Shown here: positions 17,112-36,752 of the stretch, piece after piece
Numbering within the stretch: position 1 is the stretch's first letter
How the letters are laid out: every line of letters begins with the position of its first letter
DNA from: Flammula alnicola
Taxonomy: Eukaryota; Basidiomycota; Agaricomycetes; Agaricales; Strophariaceae
Direction: 5' to 3'
DNA length: 64,000 bases
NCBI GenBank assembly: GCA_015499995.1
Contig: JADNRV010000049.1
Coordinates: 124,001 to 188,000, forward strand
Program-made: the position numbers and the translations under genes
The notes under the pieces: model-generated
What the model was told of the DNA's origin: nothing
Databases searched by the model: none
Seen by the model: only the letters and a program-made list of their open reading frames with translations

Positions 17112-20100
17112 TTGTTCAAGGCCGAGTCGTAGTCGGAACGGTGTGGTTGGTTGGGCGCAGGTCAATGCGCAGTTGACATGGCTCGCTGGTACTAGAAGCA
17201 AGCAAGTGATAAGATGCATACGTTGAAAAGATAATCGATAACGAGTGGTGCACTAGTGCGTTACAGGAAATTTCATGATAACTTGATATGATGGGTATGG
17301 AAGTTCGTATCCATTTGATAACCGGCAATAGTTTCGGCTTACACAGTACTCTTTTGTTTTCTATTCTCGATTTCAAGTTCTAGAATATAATAGCATGGCA
17401 TTAGGTACATTAAATTCATGACGCTTTTCAAGGAAGACCAATATCCAGCTGCAAATTTCCATGAACTGAATATAATCGCAAAGAAACACCGATATTGACT
17501 AGTACTGGCCATGGATTGGACGTTAAGATTTCTCGCTTGACCAGAACGAGCAAGCCTGCCCGCTCGAAAAAGAGACTCTTCCATCCCACGAGTCTACCAA
17601 TCTCTCCAATATCAATCAGCCTCTTCAATAATAGATGCACATCGCATCACCCAACGCGCTTGGTCGATTCCCATGTCAGTATGTCTGGGTATGGGGTGTG
17701 TCAGCCATGTTGACTCTTGACGTTGGTCGCCGTAACAGTCGACGCCGTTCCAGTGAGACCCCACGTTTGTCAAAAAAAAAATTGCAGAGGCTGATCTAAT
17801 TCCGGATTTTCTTTTATCTGTTATTCAGAGAGAAGACGAGCCAAAACGTGCTTCGAACTCCCATGTCGTCGTCGTGCGCCCACCGTCCGACTGATCAACG
17901 CTAAAATGCTAAACACGCCCTTCCTCTCGAAAAACCACCGATCATTCGGCATTTTTCGTCACTGGCTCACAGTGTGCTCTTGCATTCTATTTTCTCATGA
18001 TGCTGAAGACGAGGTCTGTTGACTTTGCGAAGATTGCTGCTGGATATGGAACCAGCTTTGTACCCACTTCCAAGCTGAGTATGCATTTGGATGGCCAACA
18101 CCCCGTTCAACGTGTACACTGCGCGATTCTCAGGACGATGCCCATATCGCAGCGCTCAGCGCTCAGCGCCGCACTCTGGGCCATTCATTCCCTCCCAGGA
18201 CGGCTCCAACTCCCTAGCTCACGTCAGTAAAATCACTTTTCATTTTCGCTCCTTCTCCTCTTTAACGACGCAAAAATTAACTTCTTTAGATTCTAATGGA
18301 CTTTCCAGCGCCGTCAGCCAAGTTACGTCCGATACCAGAACACATCGACTGGCACTGGCAGCACACGACACTGGGCGCTCCTACCGCCCGGGCATACATA
18401 GCATACATAAACCGTTCAAGATCCCGCTGTACTTGTTCTTGAAATTTTTCGTGGCACCCGATATACACGCGTGGAAAATCTCGAAGGGCAACGCTGACAC
18501 TTTCGTGCACACGTACGTCAACGTTTTCACAAGGATCCAACTCAATCTCACTCAATATTAATTCGAAAGTTGGACGCGTCCACGTCTCTGCGGCGAACGT
18601 AGTGGCTATCTGATGACCTTCGTTCACGGCGATCATGGGCTATGTAAATGTGTACGTTCAAGATGCTTCTAAGGAGGATCTACGGTGGTTGTTTGTGTTC
18701 AGTCTGGCGGCGGTGGCGGCGGATTCTCCCTCCGAGTTGGTCGTACTTGCACAGTCATCTAATGGCCGCACCGCAACTCGCTACAGTTTACTGAAAATCT
18801 CCAACTAGCTCTCAGACTTCAGCGCCTCTTACATTCGTCGTTCATCTCGTGAACCCTCGGCCCATGCTCTTCAGAAGTCTGCATCAAACTTTACCCGGTC
18901 AAGCAGCGAAAATTTCATCCTCCAGGTCAATTAATGTAAGTAGGTATGTTCGGCTTTTGCGTATGATCGCAACGCATCATGATCACATCCGCACAGACCA
19001 TGCAGTTCCTGGGACCTAGCTCCGCCAACGCTTTAATTAAGCATGATGACCTTCTGCGCCCTGGGACCTTGATCTTATTCCACGTTCCATATCGCGACTC
19101 TGATATCTCCTGATAGGCTCAGGTTGGCGTATATGCGCATGTGTGCGCCTTTCGCTCTCGGCGATGAAGAGACCGCTTCCGCGGAGATCAAGAGAGGATC
19201 CGGTCAGGTGTTCCTCTCTTCACCCAGATATTTCGCTGCAGCCCTTGCTCATGTAGCCTCAGGCATGTTCATAAAAGGTGCACATCGGTCGTCACAGTTA
19301 ATTGCCTTTCTTTTAAGGACTTCAACTGTAGACTTCCAGGCAACACCAGGAAGAGCCAACCTCGAAGCCAGTGTATGACAAATTCAACTTTGGTGATGGC
19401 AGAGCAGAACTTACGAGGTTCGCCTCAGTTCTAGAACGCCAACTCCATATTTGTTTAAATTTGATCGCTTATGTGCAGGTCGGCTATCCGATGTGGGCGA
19501 TTGGAAGAGCGCCTGGCCGCCGTAGTAATACATGTTCTTTCACCCTCACTATCAACATCACTACCGTGTGCTAATGGCTGCGGCCTGCGTCATCAAGTTT
19601 GTCGAAAACGGACGTGCATCGTTGACACTGCTTCAGTTTTTCTGCTGGTCTGCTTATAGCCAGGCTGAGGAGCCTCTTTATTTTGGTGCTGCGCATGGGC
19701 CATGCACGAGTCGCACACCGATTTTATCTGCCTGTCAGCTTTCACGGACTCTCGTGGCCTGAGGCTGAGGTCTCAAATTTATCTGTTGGATATTAGATGC
19801 ACCCCATTCAAAACACTTCCGAGTCGCCATACGGAATTCTGGGCTGACAGTGACGGTTGGCACAAGCCCCAGTCATTAAATTTCTTTTGTGTTTGGTCTC
19901 TCTTGGTACTTGTGTGTCTAACTGATGGAGGTACGATACTGGAAATGTTTCATAGCGTATGTTAGATGAATAACTACCCGTCTCTGGGGGTGCGATACTC
20001 CAAGGAGGCTCCGCCAGACATTGAGTTTGTCGTGATCAGCGGCGAATTTCCTCCACTTCAGAGACCCCTCAGGTTCGTGTGGACCCTGTGAGCCAATGGA

Positions 20101-20205
20101 CAGAATTTACGGCACGACTCGGACACGAACGTCAGGGACTAAAGCTTCTCTGAGTTTTTTCTTCCTCCTTACCTCTTACTCTCTTCTGCTCTTATTTCGA
20201 CTCTC
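17112..20205. other. Intergenic, 3 kb
   Basis: I see no gene I can defend. Open frames such as 18091-18561 and 19532-19762 lack domains and consistent splicing. A short poly-A tract lies at 17772. Together with the MITE this makes a 5.8 kb gene desert between two gene blocks. Confidence 0.45.
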
Positions 20206-21479
20206 ATGACGCACTCAGGAAGCCACGAGACACGCTCAAAGAGTAAAAAACCTCAAAATGTTCAGAGGGGAAGAAACCTTCAGAGGCAAGAGGTACCCCC
20301 AGCCGATTCAGATGGACGCCTTAACACGCGGGATCCTTCCCCCTCTCACCTCGACTCGTGAGCCGTGCATTTCCCTTTGCTTTCATTTCCTCGCCCTCAT
20401 CAGAAAATAGAACTCGTCGTTTAACCCGCGCAGGTCGCGCGATGATCCGTTATTGTGATAGCGACCAGTTCACAGATACAGAGCTGGCAAAAATATTCGA
20501 TACCCACTTAAAAGCAATTAAGTCAATAAAGGAAAACCAATACTATCACCGTCCCGACAACCTGGACGAGGACGTGCAACATATTACCAGGGGCTTCAAG
20601 GAGCGTATGAAACGTTGGGTGAGTTGATTGTTTGCTTTCGAAATTTCATGCATGATGTCTGCGAACGAGTTTCTTATGTGCAAGTCCTTCCATCGACTTT
20701 TTAGCTTGATGCGAACCGAAAGGCAAGGGGTCAAATAAAAAAACCTTTCGAAATGGAGAACGAGTCACTTGCCACAGAGAAGGTGTGTATTTTTCATTGC
20801 TAATTGTGCTATTGGTGCCAATCACGTCACTTCCAGAGGTCAAGGAAAAGGAAACGCGAAGATGAATCAGAAGATGAGGACCTTACGCCTGCTGATGTGC
20901 CGAATCCCCCTCATCCGGTACGTCTCGTAAACAAGTATTTTATTTGAAGGCGATGTAATTCTAAACCGTTGTATGATTCTTGTAGACGAGCAGGAAAAAA
21001 GATAAAAAGGCCAAAAATCAGGCCAACGTTGTCGCTGCTGCCAATCAGGTATTTCTACGAGGCACATATACTGCAACGACGACCTAATGCTAACACGGAG
21101 CAAGGAGCCTATCTCTGTCGACTCCCCAGAGCAACCCCAAACACGCGCAAAGAAGAGGGCAAGGAACGAGCACAACCAGAATAGCGCGAACGGCTCCTCG
21201 ACAAAGACGGTGACAGCCAGAGATGACGACGGCGACAAAGTTGAAAGGTTTCTCAACGACAGGAATTACGGTAACCCATCGGTCGTTGAGAACCTGAAGA
21301 GGGCCGGAGTTGGCGCTCACGAAATTCTCTCCATGAAGGGCCTGAAAAAGTATGTCATCGCGACCAGACTTCAGGCAATGATACCCCCGAATCTTCGAAC
21401 CACTGCTCAAATCGAATGCCTGGCATTTGCGGTTAGTTCTGCTACTTGGGCTGATTGGAAACGACTTAGCCAAGTCTAA
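20206..21479 (+). CDS. Orphan nuclear protein family, paralog A (putative N-terminal HTH)
   Basis: Six exons: 20206-20357, 20411-20618, 20705-20782, 20837-20917, 20986-21048 and 21105-21479, giving 318 residues. Intron phases are 2,0,0,0,0. Exon 2 holds a compact helical unit (RAMIRYCDSDQFTDTELAKI..) resembling a helix-turn-helix. Exons 3-5 form a charged linker with basic clusters (RSRKRKRE, SRKKDKKAK, AKKRARN) that look like nuclear localisation signals. Exon 6 ends in a second helical domain (VERFLNDRNYGNPSVVENLK..LAFAVSSATW). The gene at 35493 has the same exon number, phases, domain order and almost the same length. A DNA-binding or chromatin role is inferred only from the HTH-like region and the basic signals. 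No named family recognised. The TAG acceptor at 20408-20410 was chosen because it keeps the frame and matches the paralog. Confidence 0.75.
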
Positions 21480-21998
21480 TCGAGCCAAAATCGAGCAGCT
21501 GGAAATCGAGTACATGACTTTGTAGCTTATATTCATCTATAATTCATCGCCTAAATTATTTGGATTTCGCCTTTAGTAGTAAGTAGTCGAGTTCTGCGAT
21601 GACTTAGCTCATTTTTCGCACAGATGGCAGGACTCCAAGTTTAAACTTGCATCGCGATTCGATACATAGTTGACCCTTGAAGTATTATAATGAGTAAATA
21701 AGGAGCATACAATGTTAATAAAAGATGGGTAATCAGCTGTTCATCATCCAAGGAGTCTTTAAAGGAGAAAAAGACATAGTGACGGGTGAAGGAGAGAGCG
21801 ATGAGCGTTGGATTGTTGCACGATGATCGATTGATATTAAAAACAAAAAGATGAGCGTCTCAGCCAGATTCAGAACGACAGTGCCTTAGGGTTAGGGGTT
21901 GTAAACGCGTTGAGACCGTGACAACTTACAAGCAGTAAGTTTGCGCTGACTGTTTCTCGCTTCACCTTACACCCCTGAATGCACACTTTCCATCGACT
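21480..21998. promoter_or_regulatory. Upstream region of the Alba gene
   Basis: This 519-bp intergenic stretch separates paralog A from the Alba-domain gene. The last 113 bp contain a tandem TTAGGG box, listed separately, followed by a CT-rich run (TTTCTCGCTTCACC) before the ATG, a common fungal leader feature. Confidence 0.5.
21886..21898 (+). promoter_or_regulatory. Tandem TTAGGG box (telobox-like) 101 nt upstream of Alba gene
   Basis: The motif TTAGGGTTAGGGG occurs once here, with its last base 101 nt before the ATG at 21999. TTAGGG is the telomere repeat of most basidiomycetes. In yeasts, TTAGGG-binding Myb factors such as Tbf1 also act at promoters. A similar box stands at the same distance before the proteasome gene at 23539. 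Function is inferred. Confidence 0.5.
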
Positions 21999-22843
21999 AT
22001 GGAACAAGATATGGATGCCATACATGATTCACCCGCTCAAGACGGCAACGAGAAGCATATCCGCATCACGCAGCAGGGCAAAATGAAGTGGTGGATTTCT
22101 GTATCTCTAAACTTCTTCGAGGTAAGACTGCCGTGTTTCTGTCGCAGTCGACGAAATATGAACTTTGTCCAACTCATTAGAATCCAGAAGAAGATAAAAG
22201 TCTTATCCTTCATACGTTACCTCACTTCGTGGATGCGCAGGCGGAGCCTGGTAGTGTTGCAGGCGCACGGACACTCGCCCAACAATCGGCTTCAGCAGTG
22301 ACCAGCGTCGTACCTCGACCGATATCTGTCGTGGAAATCATCAAGCGAGAATACATGAAGAAATTGGAGACCACTCGCTCGACCGGGGTCTGCATCAGTA
22401 CAGCGAACTGGGGACATTGGAGGAATTGGGGATCGCCATCGACCGTGTCGAAGGAGGACAAGGGAGAAGCATTGAAGAGGCCAAAGAAGCTTCGAGATCG
22501 AGGGACATTATTGAAGCGTTCAGTGGCAAAAAACAGTCTGTTCTTCGTCGACCCGATTCATAATTCGTTTTTACCTGTTCCATTCCATTTAGCCCGCGAC
22601 AAATTCAGACCCCTTTCATGCGTATCACCCTCTCAACAGTCGAAATACCCGACCTGGTCGCTAAGGGAGCATCGTAAGCCTCGTCATTTGGATGCTTTGT
22701 CACATTCTAACGACCGCATTAGATATCAACCTCCTACTGTACGCAAGCAATCGAAGGCGGCAAAAGCACGCGCAAAGAAACGTGTAAGGGCACACCGACG
22801 GACAAGTGTAGCTGTGGTCAACCCGACTATGATGACTGGCTAA
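21999..22843 (+). CDS. Alba-like nucleic-acid-binding protein (Rpp20/Rpp25 type) with an apparent frameshift
   Basis: Exon 1 (21999-22121) encodes HIRITQQGKMKWWISVSLNF, the start of an Alba fold. Exon 2 (22181-22535) contains PISVVEIIKREYMKK, then GLHQYSELGTLEELG in another frame. Exon 3 (22593-22673) gives PFMRITLSTVEIPDLVAKGA. Exon 4 (22723-22843) gives YQPPTVRKQSKAAKARAKKR with a very basic tail. All other splice joins stay in phase. The frame breaks once, at the GGGG run 22385-22388, where one additional G would restore it. Alba-like proteins of this type bind RNA in RNase P/MRP or bind chromatin. That role is inferred from the family. The break could be a sequencing error or a recent inactivation. 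Confidence 0.7.
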
Positions 22844-22989
22844 GAAGCTCCGCATTTGCTGTCTTCTGTGTACTTTGTTCTGGCCCTTGTATGTATCAAA
22901 TACTTTTTGTGACCTCTTAAGTTGACCTCCTCTTTTAGCTCTTGACCTCACGGGCATTTTCTGTTCTTGGTGGTCTCTATCTAGTAGCC

Positions 22990-23390
22990 TCCGGAAGCCG
23001 CTTGGGTATTGTGGCTGCAACGTCGAAGGTGGTGGAGGTTGAGGAGGCTATAAATAAAGGAAACGAGGAGATAATGCCGGAGTACCTCGGCATGTCTGAC
23101 TCGAAGGAGGCAAGTGTGAGTGCCCCTTAGTCAATGTAGTAGTGGTGATAATTCTGCTGCTAAGCCCACCGTTTTCGCTGCCTCCAGACTCCAGCAGCAA
23201 TAACACCACCACCACAAGAAAGTACAGCACCAAGCCCAGCAAGAATACAAATAACATGACAGAGGACGGTCGTCCGCGCCCCGAGTCCATTTAATCGCCA
23301 CCACCCTCTCGTCTACGCCCCGTACGGCGTCGTCGAAGTCGGCATCTTCTAAGGGCCGAACTGGCGGCTCATAGCGGACCTGAGCTCATT
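22990..23390 (+). pseudogene. Inverted degenerate relic of the serine-rich gene at 10088-14421
   Basis: The plus strand here matches the minus-strand coding sequence of the serine-rich gene around 12250-12740. In translation, TSKVVEVEEAINKGNEE..MSDSKEASVSAP parallels TKTTVVEVEEVARGDRGRGK..DVSDSKEPASASAS. Further on, DNA such as AGCAGCAATAAC, GCGCCCCGAGTCCA and ACGCCCCG is conserved in order. Stops interrupt it (TAG near 23128, TAA near 23293). It is therefore an old partial duplication in opposite orientation, with no function visible. It ends right before the proteasome promoter. Confidence 0.75.
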
Positions 23391-23424
23391 CGCGGGCGAG
23401 GAGGCAGACGATGCAGACATACCC

Positions 23425-23438
23425 TAGGGTTAGGGTTA
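23425..23438 (+). promoter_or_regulatory. Tandem TTAGGG box (telobox-like) 101 nt upstream of proteasome gene
   Basis: The motif TAGGGTTAGGGTTA has its last base 101 nt before the ATG at 23539, the same distance as the box before the Alba gene. Just downstream is GCGGCAAAC, weakly like the yeast proteasome element GGTGGCAAA. That resemblance is too loose to annotate. Confidence 0.5.
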
Positions 23439-23538
23439 TGCGCGGCAAACTCCGGTTGACGAGACGCGTGTGTCAGCTTGGCTCGACGCGTAACCGTTCA
23501 TCATCTTTCTTTCCTCTGCACACTCATCCATTAACGCA

Positions 23539-24228
23539 ATGGAGACCTCGTTCGCACTTACGGGAAAAGGCTACTTGATTGTGGCCGCAGATACCACAGC
23601 GGCTCGCTCGATCGTCAAAATGAAAGTCGACGAGGATAAAATCAAGACTGTGAGCCCTCATCTTCTCATGGCGTACTCTGGTGAACCAGGTAGGTGGAAG
23701 TTTTCATCCTTCGACTCAGTTTTACCCAAAGATGCACAGGTGACACTGTCCAATTCGCTGAATATGTCGAGCGCAATATCCGCCTATACCAGATTCGCAA
23801 TCTTTATTCCCTGCGGCCATCTGCTGCTGCTTCATGGATTCGTAAAGCCCTCGCTGACTCTCTTCGGTCTCGCAAACCATACTCCGTCAACCTTCTCCTT
23901 GGTGGATACGACACCGCAACAAACGACCCCCACCTTTATTGGATTGACTATCTCGGGACCATGACGGAGGTGCCATTTGCAGCGCACGGTTACGGCTCAT
24001 ACTTTGCCCTGAGTTTATTGGATCGGTGTGTCTCAAGGTCCTCTCTTTCGTTCTCTGGACTGACTCCTCGTCTGTCAAAGTTACCACGATCCGAGCGCCA
24101 GCCTCGAGGAAGGACTGGCGACGCTGAAGCGCTGCCTCGATGAGGTTTCAAAGCGTCTCGTAGTCAGTCCTGGGACATACAAGGTTAAGATCGTAGACAA
24201 GGATGGCGTTCGGGAGATAGAATTGTGA
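23539..24228 (+). CDS. PRE1: 20S proteasome subunit beta type-2 (yeast beta-4)
   Basis: Three exons (23539-23689, 23740-24025, 24081-24228) join in phase to 194 residues, close to the usual 195-200. Diagnostic segments in order are [92 protein letters not shown] and LLDRYHDPS. There is no propeptide and no catalytic N-terminal threonine, as expected for this non-catalytic beta subunit of the 20S core, which acts in the nucleus and cytoplasm. The gene looks fully intact. Its promoter carries a tandem TTAGGG box. Identification is firm. Confidence 0.95.
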
Positions 24229-24719
24229 ATTACTTCATGATGTACATATATGATTGTAATAAATCTCTCTCTTCTTCCTTTCGGAGGCCCGAACTGTGTC
24301 GTTGGTTTGCATCAATAGCTGTGTCCCTTGGATCCATCGCAGGTTCAGAAAACGTCGCAAGTCGCCTAACACTTCGTTGGTTGCTTGTAATTGGCAACGT
24401 TACCGCCAACAACCGTCTACGTACTATTCTTTCAAATAATATTTACTTCATCCTTCCCGTCTCCACGGACTCTGGAATGATAGTTCCAATTGACTCGACC
24501 TATCACATAGAACACTAGATTGATGTGGTGGCCGGCTCCTCAGTGTTGCTAATTTGCATCCAGGCGAGCAGTCTCGCTTTCTCGGATACTAGAAGAAGTG
24601 CGGAAGATATTTCTGGGGCACTATCGGACCTCGCTCCGTGATGGGAAGGCCATAACACTCTCTGCGTCGTCGTCGGCGCAGACGACGAAGCCCGCGGTCT
24701 ACTAAGCTGGAAAGGCATT
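24229..24719. other. Intergenic between proteasome and membrane-protein pseudogene
   Basis: No gene is supported. The region lies between the 3' end of the plus-strand proteasome gene and the decayed 3' part of a minus-strand gene (convergent arrangement). Confidence 0.5.
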
Positions 24720-25630
24720 GCTTGCGTGATTGGCTGTCAGCGAGACTGGGACCAAACTGTTGAAATTAACATTAGAGGGGTAGATGCGAATAGAACGATA
24801 TTGCTGACAACTTGAAGTAGCACATTGCGACGGGTCAGAGGCAACCCTTGCTCGTCTTTTCCGCGAATAAAAAGTAGCAAAAACAAGAGAGCCAACATGA
24901 TGACGCCGTTGAGAATTGCGCCAACAGGAGAGCCGGCTTGACTTGACGACGAAGCGACAGCGGTCTCCGACGTTGTTGAACCACTTGATCTGGGAAGCCA
25001 CAGTGAGTCATTCGACAGAAAATTTGGTGGAAACATAGAATAACTTTGAACATTTCCCGGCTCCATTGTCACTGGGATTGTTGGTGTGTGTTGATACTGG
25101 CAAATGATGTACTGGCGGATGAAACACCAACAGATACAACAGATAAGCTTGCAGGACTTGACGAGCTTGATGAGCTAGAAGAGACAATGGCCCTTGTTGT
25201 GATTTCGAAGTAATCCAAATAGAAAAACGTAGAGACTCCGGTGACAGAGGTTCCGCTGAGGCATGTAACAACCAGTTCATGTTGTCCTGAGGATAGCTCG
25301 CATCTTAAACTGGACGTCGGTTGTTTGGACCCCAACATAAATTGACGGTGCGCCGCGGTCGATACTGTACGACGAGCTCGAAGGTCCTCCACGTTGGGTG
25401 TTCGGAATGGTCCCGAAGACCTTAATTTGAGTACCTGTTTTAACATGAACTAATCAGCAGAAGGTCAAACTTCGAGTAAGAATGTCGCACCTGAAAATTG
25501 TACCTCGCTGTCTGTACAGCGACATTGGTCCAGGTTGTCGGGACTTGTACTCATTAGGACCGCCAATGCTTGCCCATCCAGATGAATAGATAATTCTGGG
25601 GTCGTGGTTGTCGAAGATCCGAGTCGACAT
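24720..25630 (-). pseudogene. Broken single-pass membrane protein, paralog of the gene at 26577
   Basis: From the ATG at 25630, MSTRIFDNHDPRIIYSSGWA and SIGGPNEYKS match the start of an Agaricomycete family with a beta-sandwich ectodomain. The family pattern continues, but in changing frames: TTWTNVAVQTARYNF, then GTQIKVFGTIPN..SSSYSIDRG, then LSSGQHELVVT..FYLDYFEITT, a serine run, and SPVGAILNGVIMLALLFLLL as membrane segment near 24900. At least three frame breaks occur, at about 25549, at the intron near 25445-25490, and near 25300. It is divergent to an intact-looking paralog. Decay is the simplest reading; undetected sequence errors are the alternative. Confidence 0.6.
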
Positions 25631-26576
25631 CGTTCATGGAACCGGGGCGAATGAAAAAAAAAAGAGTGAAATGTTGGGCAGAGAGGGATACTCAAGAGAG
25701 CCCATGATATATGTCAGCGAAGACGAGAAACCCGCCGAGACCATTGTTGATCTTCCAAACAGGGCCTAGTGTCAACTGCAGAGACCAATCGCGATCCCCA
25801 GCGCTAAGGTACTATTAGTATCTCAGGTCGCTACCCCCCTTCAAGTTGCTCGAGCGCCCTCCACCCGACTCGGAAATGTAAAACGTCTGAAAGGTGGTCT
25901 TCAAGAACAAAAGAAGGACATTGAGCGTCGTTGAGATCCATTCGTGCGGCTATTTTTAAATCCTAATGACTGATGGTCTTCTGCCTTGAGCTTGAGGCCT
26001 GAAATAAATTGTGGAGGGCGTTGACGGTTGAGGAACTTGAGAAAGAAATGGTGGTTAATCCGGTATATCTCACCGGACGGAAACAACCCGGCGGCAATCA
26101 CCGACCTCGCGAGGTTACGCGAGGTACACCTCCGACTCGCCTCACCTGGTGTTGCCGCCAAATCGAGTTGAGCCCGGGCTCTCGCCTCGACTCGAAATCA
26201 GGGCAACTGGTGTCACCTCTCGACAACATTACGCGCGCTTCTCTGTTGCGTCTCTGTATAGCTCTGTCTGTTCTTCTGAAGCCGAATTCGGATATCCTTG
26301 TCATCTAGACGCGACAACATCATGCGAGGTACAACTCGACCCGACATTTCGAGTTGATTCGAGGTGACCACCCCGCCTCGCCTCGCCTCGACTTGGCGGC
26401 AATACTAGCCTCACCTCACTACGGGGGCAACACTACACCCTCTCCACGCAACGCGTGGCCATCAACAATGTTGAGCACTTCGATGAACGCCCATCCTCAT
26501 CTACTTCAACCAGACCAGCAGTCTGCTAGTTGTCTCGCTCATCTGCAGACATCTCTTCATTGCCACTTGGACGGAA
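25631..26576. promoter_or_regulatory. Shared upstream region of the divergent membrane-protein pair
   Basis: About 950 bp separate the two divergent start codons. The right half contains a GC-rich fold-back repeat, listed separately. No additional gene is visible. Confidence 0.5.
26090..26440. repeat. GC-rich fold-back repeat of CCTCG/CGAGG units
   Basis: Imperfect arms face each other: GTTGCCGCCAAATCGAG at 26151-26167 against TCGACTTGGCGGCAAT at 26388-26403. Inside them TCGACTCGAAAT..GTGTCACCTC pairs with the complement of GAGGTACAACTC..ATTTCGAGTTGA. Smaller palindromes (CCTCGCGAGG, GAGGTGACCACC) add to the folding potential, and CCTCG repeats in tandem near 26375-26390. This resembles a fold-back MITE, but termini and target duplication are unclear. 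Confidence 0.5.
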
Positions 26577-27629
26577 ATGGGTGATCTGCAGCCAATTGAC
26601 GACCGCGATCCGCTTATTTCATATTCTGGCACTTGGGAGGACGGTGGGGTCGATAACGAATACAATAAAACCACGACATGGACGAACTGGTCAGGTTCCA
26701 CTGCAAAGATAACGTTTTCTGGTAGGCAACTTGTTTGTCGTCCTGCGTGATCTCCGTCTAATCTTTGTCTCAAGGAACAAGCATCAGCGTCTGGGGTACA
26801 ATTGCCGTTGCTGACCTTGGAGTAGCCCCTCATTCGTCGTACAGTGTGGATGATGGACCCGCAATGCTCTATGAGGCAAACCAATCTTCTACTGCACAAT
26901 ATCGACAACAATTTTTTCAGTCTGGGAACTTATCGCCTACCAACCACACTCTACTTCTCACCACTTTGGTCGAGGGCGCTTATTTCTATCTAGATTATGC
27001 CTTGATCACTCCTGCCGACACCTCAGCGGCATTAAATGGTTCTTCGTCTTCGTCTTCGTTATTGCCATCTTCCTCACCCTCCATTACGACGACAACCCGC
27101 CCCGCGACATCAACCACGCCTCTGCAATCACAGCCAGTATCGAGTTCTTCCGAAGCTGGGATACCTGTGGGAGCAATTGTAGGAGGTTCTCTGGGAGGTC
27201 TCGCTTTAATCATGTTCACGATTATCGCCTTCCTTCTGCTTAAAAGAAAGAAGAATGGACTGGCGCAAAGCGCAAACTCGGGGGAGGAAAATACCACAAG
27301 TCGTAAGTTATGCCATTCTCAATTACAAAGCCAAATTTTCGCTAACAAACTGCTCCCGCACAGTACGGTCTCGACGTACTGCCTCTTTGACACCTTTCGT
27401 ATCCCGACCCTATCCTAGATATGAGCACCGAGATTACTTGTCACCTTCAGCATCTTTGCAGCAGATGGATGTTTTCGGCTCATATCCAGCCCCTTCACAA
27501 GACAGTCTTTCTGCATCTAAGGTCGCAGCTCTCCGAGTCTCCCATATTCGTCGCTCTCCTTCAGCTCCGAACGCGAGCAACTCTCATTACCACCCCCACG
27601 AGGCTCCTCCTCCCCGTTACTCAGGATGA
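26577..27629 (+). CDS. Single-pass membrane protein with beta-sandwich ectodomain
   Basis: Three exons (26577-26721, 26775-27302, 27364-27629) give 312 residues. The N-terminal 150 residues show the pattern of an Agaricomycete surface family: DRDPLISYSGTWEDGG, TTWTNWSGSTAKITFSGTS, VWGTIAVAD, then SSYSVDDG..LLLTTLVEGAYFYLDY. A Ser/Thr-rich stalk follows, then GIPVGAIVGGSLGGLALIMF continuing into a hydrophobic helix ending at LLKRKKN, then a cytosolic tail rich in Ser, Pro and Tyr. There is no cleavable signal; the single helix would act as anchor with the N-terminus outside. Carbohydrate binding is often suggested for such folds but is not shown here. The gene is intact, unlike its divergent paralog. 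Confidence 0.75.
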
Positions 27630-28320
27630 CCGAAAGACAGTGCTTGATTCTCGGATGTCATTTCAACTCGATTTTCTTCTCATGATGGAGCACAGTGCTA
27701 TTGATAAGACGGTCAACTTAATCTTCCCTTTCGTCGAATTTCTGTTATGGACCTTTCCCGCTCGACACTTATTCTTATGAAACTGGGGCGTGAGTCAACC
27801 ATTGGACACGTCGGGATTCTAGGACCTTAGTTCAATAACTAGTTACTATATGTCTAGGTAATATACCGCAAGCAAATACCACCCACCTTCTGCCCGAGCA
27901 CATATTTACTATTTACCCAGTATTAGTATTATCGCCATTCACCGACTTCGAGTGAACAACGTGCTCATTTTCTTTAAGGTCCGACCATACGATCGTGTGT
28001 AATTTCCTGGTTTTGAAGTAATTGTAAACTAGCCCTCTGAGAAAAAAATATGTGCGACAGTGGAGTCCGAACACGGCGGCAATCCAGTTCGTTTTCTTTC
28101 AATTAAATTCAGCATCCTGTGATCGTAGGTCAGAGAAAGATGGTGATGAAGATGACTCATAGTCTACGGGCGGTCTGCGGGCGTAGAATACAGTCGGAAG
28201 CGGCAAATGAACAGCGCTGAAAGAGGGACAGAAGAGGTGAAGCTTCATCACTGTTCATTTGACGCATAAGACCGATATCAAGTTATACTTCTATTCGTTT
28301 CTGTAGGCGAAATCGAACAA
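27630..28320. other. Convergent intergenic region
   Basis: Lies between the 3' ends of the plus-strand membrane-protein gene and the minus-strand ETF-QO gene. Nothing coding is visible. Confidence 0.5.
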
Positions 28321-30773
28321 CTATGTAACGGCTGAAAAGAAGTGACAATCAGAGCAGACACAAAAGACATCGCGAGTGAACACTCACTATACTTCGGTCC
28401 TCCACCACCCTCTGGCACTGTCCACGTAATATCCTGCGTCGGCACCTTGACATCGCACAGCTTGCAATGGATGCAATTCTACAATATCCATCAGCATTTC
28501 ATTCAGCCTCTCTAAGAGCCCAGGAAAGCATACCTGAGAGTTGATAACCAACTTGTGTCCACCCCAGCCTTCCGTCTCCGTACTACCCTCTTCCTCGGGC
28601 ACATACTCATAAACGCCCGCAGGACACGCCCGTCCAAGCAAGCCGGCGTACTCGCCGACATTGACCTGAACATGGCGTTTGCGTCGCTCCCTCTCCTCTT
28701 CTACCTGCTTCTCCCTTGCATCATCTGAGACATCTTCCTCAACCTCGACCTCGCTGCGCACAGCTCCAACACCCGCTCCAACGGCTGGGTTGCCCTTCTT
28801 CCCTTCCAGCTCATCCATATACTTCTTGGTCTTCACAACGCGCAAGTGCACGGGCTGATCCTCGGCGTGGTTCGTGCCCGTGAGGGCTACACTCGTCAAT
28901 AGATCCGTAGAGAGAGGAGCCTCGAAGGGAGGGTACTCGATTGGCTTGTGCTTGCTTGCTGGTTCCGTGTGAGCAGAGTCGAGCGAGGAGGTGTTGTCCT
29001 GCAGGCAATCATCAGCAAGACAGTTCAGTCGAGGATGTGAGGAGAACGGCTTCGATATAAAAGAATTCGATGAAATGGCATAACCACAACGACGAGAAAT
29101 ACCCCAAACTCAGAGAAAAGGGGAAATATACCCAGCCATGGGTAACGAAATATATTGGGAATAAAGAAGCACTTACCGCATTTTTTGCCTGGCCAACTGG
29201 CAAGTGGTGCTTAAAAGTCCATGGAACACGGCCTTTCAAGAAGAGGGAGTCGAGTCCAGAATAGATGATACCGCCCCAGATTCCAAGACGAGTCCCGAAC
29301 GAAGGGCGAAGATTGCGCACTTCATGTAGGTCCGCATGAACCCACGAATCGTGGAGAGCGCGGTCGTAAGCTGACATGTCGGCTGCGGTGGAGGTGGTAG
29401 AGGCAGTATCGGCTTCGGATGCAGTTTCTGCTTCACTGGGGTAGACCACGTTCCATGCAGCTTCCGCGGCGAGCATTCCGCTCTTCATGGCATTGTGGGT
29501 GCCCTTGATTTTGGCGACGTTGACGAAACCCGCTGAGCAGCCGATTAGGGCCCCTCCAGGGAAGTTGAGCTTGGGGACGGATTGGAGGCCTCCTTCGGTC
29601 AGAACGCGAGCACCGTAAGAGAGGCGCTCGGCGTTTGGAGAAGAGAGGAGAGCACGGAAGTAGGGATGATGTTTCATTTGCTGTTGAAAACTGCATAAAT
29701 TCCTCAAGTCCATTCGGCGAAGATATGATCAGCGCACCTGGAACTCGCGATAAGGACTCAGCCAGGGATTTTTGTAGTCCAGTCCAATAACAAGACCCAG
29801 ACTGACGAGACCGCCATCCATATGATACAACCATCCACCGCCATAAGTGTTGGTATTCAACGGCCAACCCATCGTGTGCACAACATCTCCAGGTCGATGC
29901 TTCTCCGGATCGACGCGCCAAACCTCCTTCACGCCAATTGCATAGGTCTGAGGTTGTGCCTCCTTCCTCAAGTCGTACAAGCTGATAGCCTGCTTGGACA
30001 ACGAACCGTGCGCGCCCTCAGCAAGCAAAGTAACCTTGGCCCGGAAGGCCATCCCAGGCTCAAACGACGACTTCATGCGATAGTTCTTCGTCAAGCCAAC
30101 CTCGTTCGTCACAACTCCCTGCACGCTGCGCACTTTGTTTCCCCACGGATCGAGCGCGTCTGGCTCGTCGCTCAGCAGCAGTTGGGCTCCGGCGAAGCCG
30201 GGGTAGATCTCAACACCAAACTCGTTCTCAGCGACGTTGGCCAGCCAGCGTGTGAATTGGGAGAGCGATACAACGTAGTTTCCCTTGTTGCTCATTTGTG
30301 GGGGGTGCGGGATGGGCAAGGCATGCTTGGATGTGAGGAAGAGCATGCGGGAGGATGTCGCGGGTTGGGTCAGGGGGTGGTCGGGCATGGACGACCAGTC
30401 AGGGAGAAGCTCGTTCAGTGCTCGTGGTTCCACCACAGCGCCAGAAACGATGTGCGAGCCTGTGGTGGTAATGTATCTGTTAAAGCTATTCCTCGGGTGC
30501 GCGACAGTAGAAAACCATACCGGCTTCAGAACCTTTCTCCAAGACCACGACTCGGATCTCATTTCCTTTCTCTCGTTCGAGCTGCTTGAGGCGGATAGCA
30601 GCGCTCAAGCCAGCAGGTCCACCACCTACAATGCATACATCCACCTCGTCTTCAGGACGTTCTATGGCAGCCGGGTTAAAGGCTTCATTCTTCCGCAAGG
30701 CTGTTGTTCTGAAGGAGCGAGCAACTGCGGAGGAGGATATTCGTAGTTGTAGTGGTTTCTTGCACCGAAGCAT
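28321..30773 (-). CDS. ETFDH: Electron transfer flavoprotein-ubiquinone oxidoreductase, mitochondrial
   Basis: Exons 30773-30521, 30459-29738, 29680-29177, 28998-28534 and from 28478 join in phase to about 680 residues (yeast homolog CIR2). It carries electrons from reduced ETF (fatty acid and amino acid oxidation) to ubiquinone in the inner membrane. Visible: a basic, Ser-rich mitochondrial presequence; the FAD-binding [76 protein letters not shown]; and the 4Fe-4S ligands in [11 protein letters not shown] and [11 protein letters not shown]. Low-complexity inserts ([16 protein letters not shown] and a Glu/Arg-rich block near residue 580) make it longer than usual. After GGGGPKY the end is either a short final exon behind a GTGAGT intron or read-through; the stop is taken near 28321. 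Confidence 0.95.
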
Positions 30774-32186
30774 CGTCGCTCTTGCGGAGAGAGATGCGGA
30801 GGAAAAGAAAGAAAGAAGGAAAACGGGATATGTCTTCAGTTATTTCCGTCCAATCCTTTGGAGGCGATTGGCTGGAAGCGGCACGTGATTACCTCTGGCT
30901 CTTGGATATTCCGCTTCCCCAGGTCCCTCTTCATCTTGAACCCCACTTTGCACCCGGTGATCCTCGTCTGTCATACTCCGTGCATAAGATTTATCGTGTG
31001 CAGTTGTTAGTGGTGGTTCGACCTGACACTTTATTCACTTTTTGGCGCTTTCTATGTATTTGATCTCAACAGTTTTTGCCACATTTGCTAAATTACACAC
31101 GGGCTAAGTAGAACAAGTTAATTAACCATGAAGCGACAAAAAAAAATGAAGGCGACAAGACGACTGTCACCACTGCTCTCCACCTCTTTCAAAGGGGATA
31201 GTTGTCAAAAAGCGGGGTACCGCACATTTCTTGGCGAGGTGTATCCAGAGAGAGCGGCATCTAGAATGGAGTGATGTGAACCTCAGTTATCGATGTCGCG
31301 ATAAAAAGAACGAAACTCAGCATCCAGACTGTATATAGCCCCAGTATACTCTGATCCAAGAATTATATATAGTGAGAATTCGAGGTCTTTCTTCGGGCAC
31401 GCCGTGAATATTTGAGATAGCAAGTCTTACGATGAGTCTTGATGAATTTCGATGGTAATAAAGCCTCAAAACGTTACCAAGATTTAGGATATCTCTCATG
31501 AGAAAATCGCTCCTTTGAAACGTATGAGTTTATAAGGACTAGAGGTTGCTGCTTCCCCATCGAAGGCCGACTTTGCATTTCTCAAGGCCCACACATGCGC
31601 CCTCAAGAAACGCCAGGTGAAAGAAAGACCAGGGCGGCCTGTGAAATAATCTTCATCGGCTCTGACAAGCAATTTAACGTCGCCTAAAAGATTCGAGACA
31701 TGACACGACACGAGTGACCGCAACAGTCTTAGAAGGCGGATAGAAAGCGAGGTCCAGAAACGCATAAGTTTCAGCAAGCAAAAAGGGGCTCGGTAGGGAC
31801 CAGTAGGCAGTAACAGCCCAATGTATAGTCAATTTCATGCAGGTGCACCAGATTTTGCCACGCAGCGAGTCAGTTATTGGCATCCAGCTGGAAGATGGAA
31901 TGTTTTCGAACACAGTGGTCTGGGAGAAGGTGCTGAAACTTCGGGGCCGAGTATTGCTTGTTATTTGGTGTTGATGCAGGGACAAATAATGCCCCTGAGA
32001 ACGAACCTCGAGCTCGTGAGGTGACGCCAAGTTTTTACCAGTAAAACATTTTCCCCCTTTTTCTTGCCCCTTCCCTCAGCTCAACACCACCGTTTTTCTC
32101 ATCTAGTACAAACGACGACGATAACGAAGAGATTACGACCGCCCCGACGACGACTAGTCTGACGAATCAAAAAAAAAATACAAACA
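30774..32186. promoter_or_regulatory. Divergent intergenic region, ETFDH / DGK1
   Basis: About 1.4 kb between two divergent start codons. No third gene is supported. The last 130 bp before the DGK1 start are CT-rich and then A-rich, typical of a fungal leader. Confidence 0.5.
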
Positions 32187-33646
32187 ATGACCTCTGTAGA
32201 GCGTGACACTGCCACCAACGCACACGACCCAGCTCATCAACCCCGCCGGCGCCGTTCAGCCCGTTCCCCTTCCCTGACGAGGTCGTCTCCTAGTACACGG
32301 GCGTCTCCCATTGCCCCAAGTAAGCGCTCTCCCTCACCTATCGTCTCCTTCCACCCTGCCCCGCTCTCGGCCGAAAATCCAAAGGGCGTGAAGAATATCA
32401 CGCGCAAAGTCATCAAGCGTTTGGAGGGTCTCGGGCACCTTGATATGGTCAATTTCGAGGTCTCCTTGCCCGAGGAGGACGAGCAGGTAGAGAGCCAGGG
32501 TGAGGAGGTGGAGGTAGAGAAGGTCCTGTACGCACTTGGGAAGGAGGCTCTGAAGACCGCACACGCGGCCAAGACAGAGTCGGAGACGACGAACGGCCAC
32601 GCAAACGGTCATATCCAGAAAGCAGCCAAGCCGAAAGCTGACTTAGAGATTCCTCGAAAGATGCTACATAGCTCGATAGGTATGTTGCTCTTTCTTTGTC
32701 TATCATTCCGCGTGTCGCTTATTTCCCTCTCCAGGCTTCCTCACATTATACCTCTACGTCTCCGAGGGCGACGTGCGAACTGTCATACTCGTACTCTGGA
32801 TGGCGCTTGCCGTCATCGTGCCTGCTGACCTCCTTCGTTTCAACTCGAGACGGTTCGCGCGGACGTACGAGAGCCTCCTCGGGTTTCTCATGCGCGAAAG
32901 CGAAAAGGTGCGTAAAGGTCCCTTCCCCGTGCTTGTCGTGCTTCTCGGTGGCATGTTACTGATTTGGCGGACAGGACTCTATCAACGGAGTAGTGTGGTA
33001 TATTCTCGGCGTCAACTTTGTCTTGTCATTATATCCCCAAGACGTGGCTACAGTGGCCATTCTAATGTATGTTCTCTGCATCATTCACCCTCTTTTCCTC
33101 ATTGCTAATCTTTTTATTTTTCTTAAGCCTGTCTTGGGCAGATACTGCAGCTTCCACCATCGGTCGACTGTACGGCTCGTCTACTGGGAAGCTGCCAGCT
33201 CGACTCCCTATTATCGGTCTCCCGCTCGCACCCCGCAAGTCTCTAGCCGGATTTGCAGCGGCAACAGTAACCGGAGTCGCTATCGCTTTTGGTTTCTGGG
33301 GCTACATTGCCGCTATTCGCGCAGGCGGAAGGGATATCACTTGGGCTTGGCAAGGCGGTGTGAGGAGCATAGCTCCCACAGGAGAAGCCACCAGCTTGGG
33401 CGGCGGAGGTGTATTGGGGCTCTTGGCTATATCAATTGTTGCGGGTATTGTTAGCGGCGTCGCTGAGGCGTTAGGTACGTTCTTGGTATTTTTGGTATTC
33501 TTTCTGCGCTAATTTTGGATTGTTTGCACCTTTTAGACCTAGGTAATTTGGATGATAACCTGACGTTGCCTATTATCTCGGGCGGGTGCATACTCGGGTT
33601 CCTTAGGCTTCTCGGGATGGCTGCGTCGTGGTTCAGTTCGTCATGA
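32187..33646 (+). CDS. DGK1: CTP-dependent diacylglycerol kinase (Dgk1 family)
   Basis: Five exons (32187-32679, 32735-32907, 32975-33066, 33128-33474, 33537-33646) give 404 residues. The first 160 residues are a disordered Arg/Ser/Pro-rich cytosolic region. PRKMLHSSIGF then opens a polytopic membrane domain of the CTP-transferase/dolichol-kinase type: TVILVLWMALAVIVPADLLR, VVWYILGVNFVLSLYPQDV, LSWADTAASTIGRLYG, a glycine-rich segment, and LDDNLTLPIISGG near the end. The combination of SWADTAAS and DDN..P points to Dgk1, which makes phosphatidate from diacylglycerol with CTP at the ER or nuclear envelope. Confusion with SEC59-type dolichol kinase is possible but less likely given the short C-terminal part. 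Confidence 0.85.
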
Positions 33647-35492
33647 TTGGCAATCCGCTTTGGTCCTCGCGTCCTTTCGAGCTTGCTGATCTTTCCCTGC
33701 ACTCGGCCTTTCGTCTGCCAACCAGTTTCCTTTTATCCTCACTATTTATTTGCACCAACATGCCATACTCTCGCCTTCCACTATCCTGGAAACCAGCACC
33801 GATAATGCCCCTCGCTCGCCATACTCTACATAAATCTGCGTCTCTGTCTCCTCTATCGGCGTCGCCGCCATCCTAAGGTCTCTCCCTCTATACGAGTCTA
33901 CAGCTCCTGGACACCATACGCCATCACTCATAATGATTACGCCTACGAATACATGCCCTTCCCACACCTTGCCATCATCATCCATCACCTTGTTAAACGA
34001 ACCCATCCTATTTCACGTCCCGCATCCGCCAGTTAGAGACTGTTCTTGTTGCTTTTTCTTCCATCCTTTCTGCGACGTGCCTTGCCAACATTATCTTACT
34101 TACTTATCCACGACGCTTTTTGTCCGAATACCCTCTCGTCTTGCTCCCTATTTTCCACGTGTCGGACGTCGTAGACGGATTTTACTTACACCCTCTTACA
34201 CTGTTCTCATTTTTCACATCTTCAGAAATTCGACTTTCGCAATCTCAATGGAATATTTTATTTTTCTTTCTGGGTGATTGTTCTTGCCGTGTGATGTATT
34301 ACGGGTGTTGCCTGTGTGATAATATGAATGCATGGTAGACATGCATTCCAGAGTGAATTCCGGGTGGAGGAGCGACACGTGCTCGGAGTCTTTCGGAATT
34401 CTATTGTGAGTAGTCTCGCCTCATGTCCATTTGACTATGGCTCACAACTTTGTCATTTCGACTTTTGGGCATTCAGAACTGCGTTTGCCTGGCTTTTGGA
34501 ACCATGATCGCTCGTTGAAATATATGGCGAGGAGCTAATTTGGTCGTCGCCGCAGCAAAAATGGATCCCTCCGGTCATACTGTTCACTCTCTCGGGCAGT
34601 CGTTGGGATTTTAGAAACCCTCACCCAGGCTTCCGAACTTCCATTGGTTCTGTATGGTTAGGCGGGATTGCGAAAAGCCTTCACATCGGTCGTCAGGGTC
34701 CTAACGAAAGTTAGGTTTTCTGTGGATCTGGGTCTCCGGATTTCCAAGTCTGCGTATTTACCATCTACGTGGAATTTGCGATGGCTGCAAAGCTGGTGGG
34801 TATTTTGCACATTTTTAAGAGAAAGAATTATTCAATTTCTGCCACAGCTTTCCTATAACCCCCCACACGTATTTCTAGAAGACACTCGGGCCCGTGCTCA
34901 CCTTGTGAGTGACGGGATTCCTTCCGCAACCTAGTAGTACGTATCGGCTTCCAATTCTTTTCACTCTAAATTTCGTAATATTAAGCTTTTTGGTCAGAGG
35001 TTGCGCCGGAATTCGCTGGAATTCGCTGGACTTCGTGGATCGTGCGCTATTCTCCTTTTCATTCCCAAGCGAGCGCGAGAAGTTATCTCTGTGCAGCATT
35101 GTTTCTTGAGGAGCCAAAGATTTTTGTAGAGAAAGTGCTTGTAGGAACATGATTACTGGACGGAACGCTTAGATGTGATTTTCTCAACTATGAATGGTTG
35201 CGCGGAGGTTTACTATTAGAGTTTTTCCGTGTTCTTGCAGCTTATCATTGTTGAGTTTCAGGATAAGTACCTGAGAATCTACTTCAGAAGTTCTCGTCAT
35301 CGCTTCCTACAGCGCCTCAATACCCAAAACGAGTTTCAACATCTCTAATATCAAAGTTCTTTTTCCGTTTTGTCCATTGCCATTGAATCTTAAAACCGTC
35401 AGGCCTGGATATTTCCCAACATCTGCTCCCTCCCTCTGGCTTTTGCTCTGAGTTCAGCCATAGAGCATCAGTCGCTCAGAGGCCTAACAAAC
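33647..35492. other. Intergenic, 1.85 kb
   Basis: The first part is the DGK1 3' region. I see no gene in the rest. A CT-rich run (TTGTCCATTGCC..CTCCCTCCCTCTGGC) precedes the start of paralog B. Confidence 0.5.
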
Positions 35493-36752
35493 ATGCCTAA
35501 GGCAAAACTCGCATACGACCATGTTACCCACCTCGCCGAGATCATCTCTCCACCAAAGAAGAAACAGCCTGTCCTGAAAACGTACGTTCACTCTTTGTGC
35601 TTTGTACTCCAAAGGACAACGATGACCTATCCCTCGTAGAGAAAACAATTTTCTCAATCGCGAGGCGCGCGCATTGATAAGATATGTTAAGGACAACCTG
35701 AAATCCCTCCCAAACCAAGAAATTGCTACGGCTTTCAACACCAATCCAGCCGCCGTGCAGAAGGTTATTTCTAACACCTACAACGGGATGGTGAAGAAAG
35801 ACAAACTCAGAGAAGACAAGCACTACCTCAAAAGTGATTTGTTCAATCGCATTAAGACTTGGGTTAGTTTTTCTTAGCATAAGATGAACGGGTGCTGATT
35901 CTCATGTTCAGGTGAACCAAGTACTGGACGTCCAAAAAGAAGCTCATAGGACATCTGTCAAGAGAGAGGTGAGTATAGGTTTAGTTTGACTGTCGATTTC
36001 TTGTACAAGAATTCTGATACACTCCTGTCAAGTTCAAGGCGGAAAAGGACTCAGACTCAGACTACGAAGACACGGAAAAGGACGACGAGGAAGATATTGG
36101 ATACAATACTCCCACCAAAGTACGGCTTGCGTACTATCATCTTCGTGCACGGTTCTGACCTGAATAATTTTTGTTTACGCCAGACGCCGAACTTGAAGAT
36201 TGTGTTCAAATCCACTCTGCCAGACACTCGAGGAAAGGTAAGGAAGTGCTTGAAAAGCCCTCGCCACTCCGTTAACCCATCCCAACCAACAAATAGACTC
36301 CTAAAGCAGCCCTCCATGACGTCAAAGAATCTCTTTTTTCTCCTATTGTCGCCGCCCCTGCAATCCAGTCGAAGAAACGCAAGGCAGGCACCCCGGCGAC
36401 AGCACCTGCAAAACGTCCAAGGGTGTCGTCCATTCGAGCGAAGACTCCAGCACCCACAAACATGGAATTAGCGCTTAAAGGCGAACGTGCCATCGTATCT
36501 GCCTTTTTCAAAGCACAACAATACAAGTCGAGCTACCTCAAGAGTCTACTGGAGCTGGGACTCGGTCCCAAGGAATTGCTCGCGCTCAGAAACATGGATC
36601 AAAATACAATCGTAGAGATACTCAGCCAGCTTCCTGTTGATCTGGTGGAGTATCCTGTCAAGTTGGGATTCTTGGCGCATGCTATAGCGTCTGCCAGCGA
36701 CGAAGTCTGGGATATGTTAGCGCAGGAAGACGATTCTGAAGAGGACAACTGA
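35493..36752 (+). CDS. Orphan nuclear protein family, paralog B (putative N-terminal HTH)
   Basis: Six exons (35493-35581, 35640-35862, 35912-35968, 36033-36119, 36184-36237, 36297-36752) give 321 residues, with intron phases 2,0,0,0,0 as in the gene at 20206. Exon 2 encodes RALIRYVKDNLKSLPNQEI followed by ATAFNTNPAAVQKVISN, read here as three helices of an HTH-like unit. Exons 3-5 are charged and acidic (DSDSDYEDTEKDDEEDI). Exon 6 begins with a bipartite-type nuclear signal (KKRKAG..AKRPR) and ends in a helical domain (GERAIVSAFFKAQQYKSSYL..LGFLAHAIASASDEVWDML). All joins are clean. Function is unknown; nuclear, perhaps DNA-binding, is an inference. Each paralog may serve to find others elsewhere in the genome. 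Confidence 0.8.

Follow-up and report, generated by a model that had tools for sequence, protein, structure and literature searches.

We examined a 64,000-nucleotide stretch of the Flammula alnicola genome (contig JADNRV010000049.1, positions 124,001 to 188,000 of the forward strand; hereafter the window), which contains two small six-exon genes, A and B, encoded on the same strand and separated by ~14 kb of sequence that includes ordinary genes. An earlier reading of the letters alone (the original prediction) had described them as diverged relatives clustered within 15 kb, and the spacing agrees with this. Our analysis shows that the two genes are paralogs sharing two domains, the first of which is predicted to adopt a helix-turn-helix (HTH) fold. 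Their features are listed below in window positions; C282 is a contig that carries a further copy of each gene.

20206..21479, + strand: gene A, 6 exons, 318 amino acids; open spliced frame, intact on haplotig C282
20206-20357, 20411-20618, 20705-20782, 20837-20917, 20986-21048, 21105-21479, + strand: exons of gene A
20411..20618, + strand: gene A exon 2, putative HTH-type domain; aligns to B exon 2, from which its fold is extrapolated
20705..21048, + strand: gene A exons 3-5, charged linker with KRSR, KRKR, KKDK and KKAK (motif positions); unalignable with B
21105..21479, + strand: gene A exon 6, KRAR cluster (motif) and C-terminal domain; aligns to B exon 6
35493..36752, + strand: gene B, 6 exons, 321 amino acids; BDZ97DRAFT_1919739 of Flammula alnicola
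35493-35581, 35640-35862, 35912-35968, 36033-36119, 36184-36237, 36297-36752, + strand: exons of gene B
35640..35862, + strand: gene B exon 2, predicted HTH-type domain (AlphaFold2 model; Foldseek and VIA matches)
35912..36237, + strand: gene B exons 3-5, acidic linker (exon-by-exon shuffle comparison)
36297..36752, + strand: gene B exon 6, KKRK and KRPR clusters and predicted helical C-terminal domain (alignment, model, motifs)

The protein of gene B is identical in 321/321 residues to the deposited "hypothetical protein" BDZ97DRAFT_1919739. All ten introns of the two genes have GT-AG borders, and the intron phases are 2,0,0,0,0 in both, so that the coordinates, lengths, exon number and phases first proposed hold. 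The "identical architecture" claimed for the pair extends to intron number and phase but not to exon length (152/208/78/81/63/375 in A, 89/223/57/87/54/456 in B). For introns 1 and 5 of gene A the frame-keeping acceptors were used; alternative acceptors gave stops. No deposited protein matched gene A at an expectation value (E) <= 10 among 1026 candidates, a set restricted to 0.55-1.75 times its length, so that a deposited model of very different length would escape. The splice model of A therefore rests on its frame, its homology with B and the haplotig, and the deposited set apparently lacks this gene.

As judged from their sequences, A and B are paralogs derived from one ancestor, and strongly diverged ones, as had been proposed: BLASTP aligns the proteins at E 7e-11 with 25% identity, in an alignment that spans the linker. 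We compared the genes exon by exon against 2000 shuffles each. None of the shuffles reached the score of exon 2 (z 12.7) or of exon 6 (z 8.9), while the alignments of exons 1, 3, 4 and 5 were indistinguishable from chance (scores reached by 325, 184, 787 and 1296 of 2000 shuffles, respectively). These results show that the shared order of two domains is real, and that the charged linker, which the original prediction counted as part of that order, is alike in composition only. Twenty-one columns of exon 2 show no variation among the two genes and their two haplotypes. Furthermore, in either gene intron 1 lies where the domain begins and intron 2 directly after the same Trp codon, so that the two introns bracket the exon-2 domain; for introns 3-5 only number and phase can be compared, because the surrounding sequence is unalignable. 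Among non-overlapping open reading frames (ORFs) of >= 50 amino acids compared across the window, just two pairs match at E <= 1e-4; the exon-2 pair is among them, whereas the exon-6 pair misses this threshold. Together, A and B show significant similarity in the same order and share intron number, phase and, for introns 1 and 2, position. The best reading of these data is an old local duplication whose copies have diverged beyond recognition outside the two domains.

We modelled exon 2 of B with AlphaFold2. The model displays a three-helix HTH arrangement, with a mean predicted local distance difference test (pLDDT) score of 74 and block means of 81-86 over residues 11-40, and almost every match listed by Foldseek and VIA is an HTH protein. 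Together with weak profile matches, this model supports the HTH-type domain originally predicted for exon 2 of B, and by extension for that of A. DUF7900 (PF25464) aligns collinearly with 63 residues of B exon 2 (8-70 to 12-74 of 97) at E 0.065, but its 14.3 bits fall short of the cut-off of 27. A search of this genome for DUF7900 was negative at E <= 10, a weak test given that control genomes were positive in 0/14, and we found no literature on it. Lrp/AsnC-type HTH regulators are bacterial and archaeal proteins with an effector-binding domain; they differ from B exon 2 in that identity is ~7-18% in the VIA rows, and the C-terminal domain of the pair is predicted to be helical and is unmatched. 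The CENP-B N-terminal or pogo-type HTH is the second Foldseek row (probability 0.98, TMq 0.57, 21% identity over 48 columns), but at E 0.74; it is absent among the 50 VIA rows listed, there is no sequence-family match, and no DDE domain is recognised in A or B.

The part after the linker forms a short domain of ~85-90 residues. The last 70-80 residues of B are mostly helical in a single-sequence model (block means of pLDDT 51-79), in line with the helical C-domain first proposed, at low to middling confidence. No coherent match emerged for this domain. The C-domain of B (36456-36749) matches DUF2857 (PF11198), a bacterial family, at E 0.0015 over 62 profile positions, below the cut-off (18.6 vs 36.8 bits), and the C-domain of A has no match. 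In a whole-genome search with DUF2857, B scored E 0.33 and another, unexamined locus a similar 0.51. Dimerisation or recruitment of a partner would be the most likely role for the domain. Nuclear signals had also been proposed, and we count five basic clusters of the K[KR]x[KR] type in A and three in B, one of the latter inside the HTH exon; the nuclear-signal patterns applied here are general background. From these clusters, A and B may be nuclear proteins.

We examined whether the pair has relatives, searching the organism's own genome (74.4 Mb, 861 contigs, E <= 10) with full-length A and B, B exon 2, and the C-domains of B and A as queries. The search yielded only A, B, their copies on C282 and weak matches, with no third member, and two of the three single-domain queries gave no weak matches at all; this makes A and B a pair, and not the "undescribed system" that had been suggested. 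Seven weak matches were read by eye and look unrelated or cannot be named: one of the equal-scoring loci C854/C124/C579 is Gypsy-like; of two loci on C192 and one on C227, one is F-box-like and two are not nameable; two on C667 are mobile-element-like; and one on C223 is of low complexity. Two further weak matches, C246 (E 1.4) and C37 (E 4.6), were left unread.

Likewise, among 5.8 billion proteins whole B found only itself (1447 candidates), as did a version of B masked outside the two domains, in which the search words derived from the domains (297 candidates). This search requires shared exact five-residue words and was run without a positive control; relatives at roughly half identity could by our estimate escape it, which makes the term "orphan" provisional. 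Exon 2 gave 93 and 86 pattern matches in viral and prokaryotic contigs, poor places to find a mushroom family, and none was confirmed. The pair is not described in the titles and opening lines of abstracts on the F. alnicola genome, on HTH orphans of Agaricomycetes or on CENP-B domestication in basidiomycetes; other descriptions in print are possible. As far as searched the A/B family is undescribed, as originally proposed, with nothing over a Pfam cut-off, and its kind of protein is familiar.

The genes between A and B include a proteasome subunit and ETF-QO, both with Pfam confirmation, and RPS17 is located on the far side of B. Next to A, at 21999-22840 (rough limits), is a gene that we take to be Alba-like, for which Pfam gave no match at E <= 0.01. 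The other ORF pair of the window-wide comparison consists of Ser-rich stretches at 25280-25453 (- strand) and 26762-27415 (+ strand), matching at E 6.7e-6 and resembling single-membrane-span proteins by eye.

Most of the first 41 kb of the window has a collinear counterpart on contig C282 (48 kb), with 92.8-100% identity from piece to piece; the exception is a 758-base piece that is inverted and 89% identical. We read C282 as the other haplotype rather than a second locus. Gene A differs on C282 by 33 substitutions in 957 coding bases, with no coding indel and all five donor/acceptor pairs kept. Its introns differ at 6 of 317 bases, less than its exons, so that the low difference is not attributable to selection on the protein alone. 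Over 19500-22000, in 250-base bins, the haplotypes differ by 2-4% in the bins of gene A, introns included. The flanks differ by 8-11% on the 5' side and 17-25% on the 3' side.

The substitutions in gene A amount to 20 replacement and 13 silent codons (NG86 dN 0.027, dS 0.065; YN00 0.031, 0.047). Replacement and silent changes are 7:1 in exon 1, 4:4 in the HTH, 6:2 in the linker and 3:6 in the C-domain, which gives 7:10 for the two domains against 13:3 for exon 1 plus linker (Fisher p 0.032, optimistic because the parts were pooled after the counts had been seen). The case for constraint on structure is weaker than the original prediction held: fewer replacements fall in the domains, whereas for the whole gene the departure from neutrality has P 0.13. 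For comparison, a large ETF-QO exon has an NG86 dN of 0.006 and dS of 0.035, a second ETF-QO stretch of uncertain frame 0.011 and 0.058, the stretch 32187-32660 0.006 and 0.053, and the Ser-rich stretch 26765-27280 0.011 and 0.007. The values are 0.041 and 0.144 in B exon 2 and 0.069 and 0.115 in the Alba-like exon. That exon (22181-22498) differs between the haplotypes at 16 replacement and 6 silent codons.

Exon 6 of B is identical on C282 over 456 bases, inside a run of 0% difference; this may reflect recombination or assembly collapse and is no evidence of constraint. Around gene B (35250-36750) the haplotype difference rises from 0% (34500-35250) to 3-8% over exons 1-5 and returns to 0% in the exon-6 bins, as if blocks had been exchanged.

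We consider it probable that A and B are the surviving copies of an old local duplication and encode small nuclear HTH proteins that bind DNA as regulators or chromatin components. In such a protein, exon 2 would be the part that binds DNA. A charged and disordered linker carrying the nuclear localisation signals would follow, running from exon 3 into the beginning of exon 6, and at its end exon 6 would form a small helical domain, most likely for dimerisation or for recruiting a partner. Once in the nucleus, the protein would use the third helix of exon 2 to contact DNA and serve either as a site-specific regulator or as a chromatin protein.

Several observations weigh against this proposal. 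No Foldseek match of B exon 2 reached E <= 0.001, and VIA Z scores were <= 6.0, in the tool's "possibly common arrangement" range. Only one of five models of the exon was good (74.0, 63.8, 46.8, 44.3, 43.2), and the single-sequence model of the full B protein gave block means of only 38-51 for this exon. Exon 2 of A matched no HTH family in a profile search, and neither A nor B exceeds the cut-off of any known Pfam family. HTH folds also bind protein or RNA, and a search of both proteins for a bipartite nuclear-signal pattern was negative. Random substitution of gene A gave a mean of 23.4 replacement codons, with 20 or fewer in 13% of trials, so that over its full length the gene shows no clear constraint relative to neutral expectation. 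Furthermore, the copy of B on C282 has three one-base deletions in exons 3-4 (35912-36119; net loss 3); with unchanged splice sites its frame runs into a stop just past the exon 3/4 junction. The deletions may reflect sequencing error, a broken allele or a shifted splice site.

That the HTH fold does not by itself reveal a function, and that no strong homolog of known function was found, leaves some room for exon 2 being a protein- or RNA-interaction module that reads no DNA sequence. We hold this to be unlikely, as the domain is net positive and accompanied by basic clusters, and its listed structural neighbours are mostly DNA binders. An origin of exon 2 by capture from a Tc1/mariner- or pogo-type transposase, making A and B domesticated DNA-binding domains without a catalytic domain in the style of CENP-B, SETMAR and Pax, would fit the rank of CENP-B as second Foldseek row, the listing of Mos1 there, and the presence of the paired domain, Tc3 and SETMAR among the VIA rows. 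These rows do not stand out, however: the paired domain (5.6) and Tc3 (5.3) tie with Lrp-like and homeodomain rows, SETMAR (5.0) scores lower, and CENP-B does not appear among the 50 VIA rows listed. No catalytic (DDE) domain is recognised in either full protein, nor any Pfam family over its cut-off, and no transposase-borne copy of the domain was found in the genome: the weak matches read (E 0.46-1.4) lie over Gypsy-like, F-box-like, other mobile-element-like or unnamed stretches. We regard such a capture as rather improbable.

Gene A might also be a decaying, nonfunctional copy, with B alone at work. It has no deposited match among the 1026 candidates, its 20 replacement changes stand close to the neutral mean (P 0.13), a stop-free frame is expected by chance in 34%, and its introns differ no more than its exons. 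Yet A keeps an open frame, all its junctions and no coding indel on both haplotypes beside flanks that differ by 8-25%, its domains carry fewer replacement changes (the p of 0.032 from parts pooled after the fact), and it is the haplotig copy of B, not that of A, that has one-base deletions. Decay of A thus appears to us to have little chance of being correct.

Returning to the pair as duplicated nuclear HTH proteins, a more elaborate form of the proposal is possible though doubtful: A and B would belong to a family of nuclear HTH regulators restricted to mushrooms and bearing a novel C-terminal dimerisation fold, retained as a linked pair, with linkers evolving too fast for word-based detection of orthologs in sister species and with one copy's linker frame differing between the two haplotypes of a single strain.

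These findings identify, in a mushroom genome, an undescribed candidate family of regulators that is open to testing, and point to gene A, which seems to be lacking among the deposited proteins. As diverged paralogs with a matching layout of exons and domains, A and B offer a clean case in which a predicted HTH fold would be kept while the linker changes. The family is new and its kind familiar, so that no new kind of system is opened, and its importance is modest for now, pending relatives and evidence of DNA binding.
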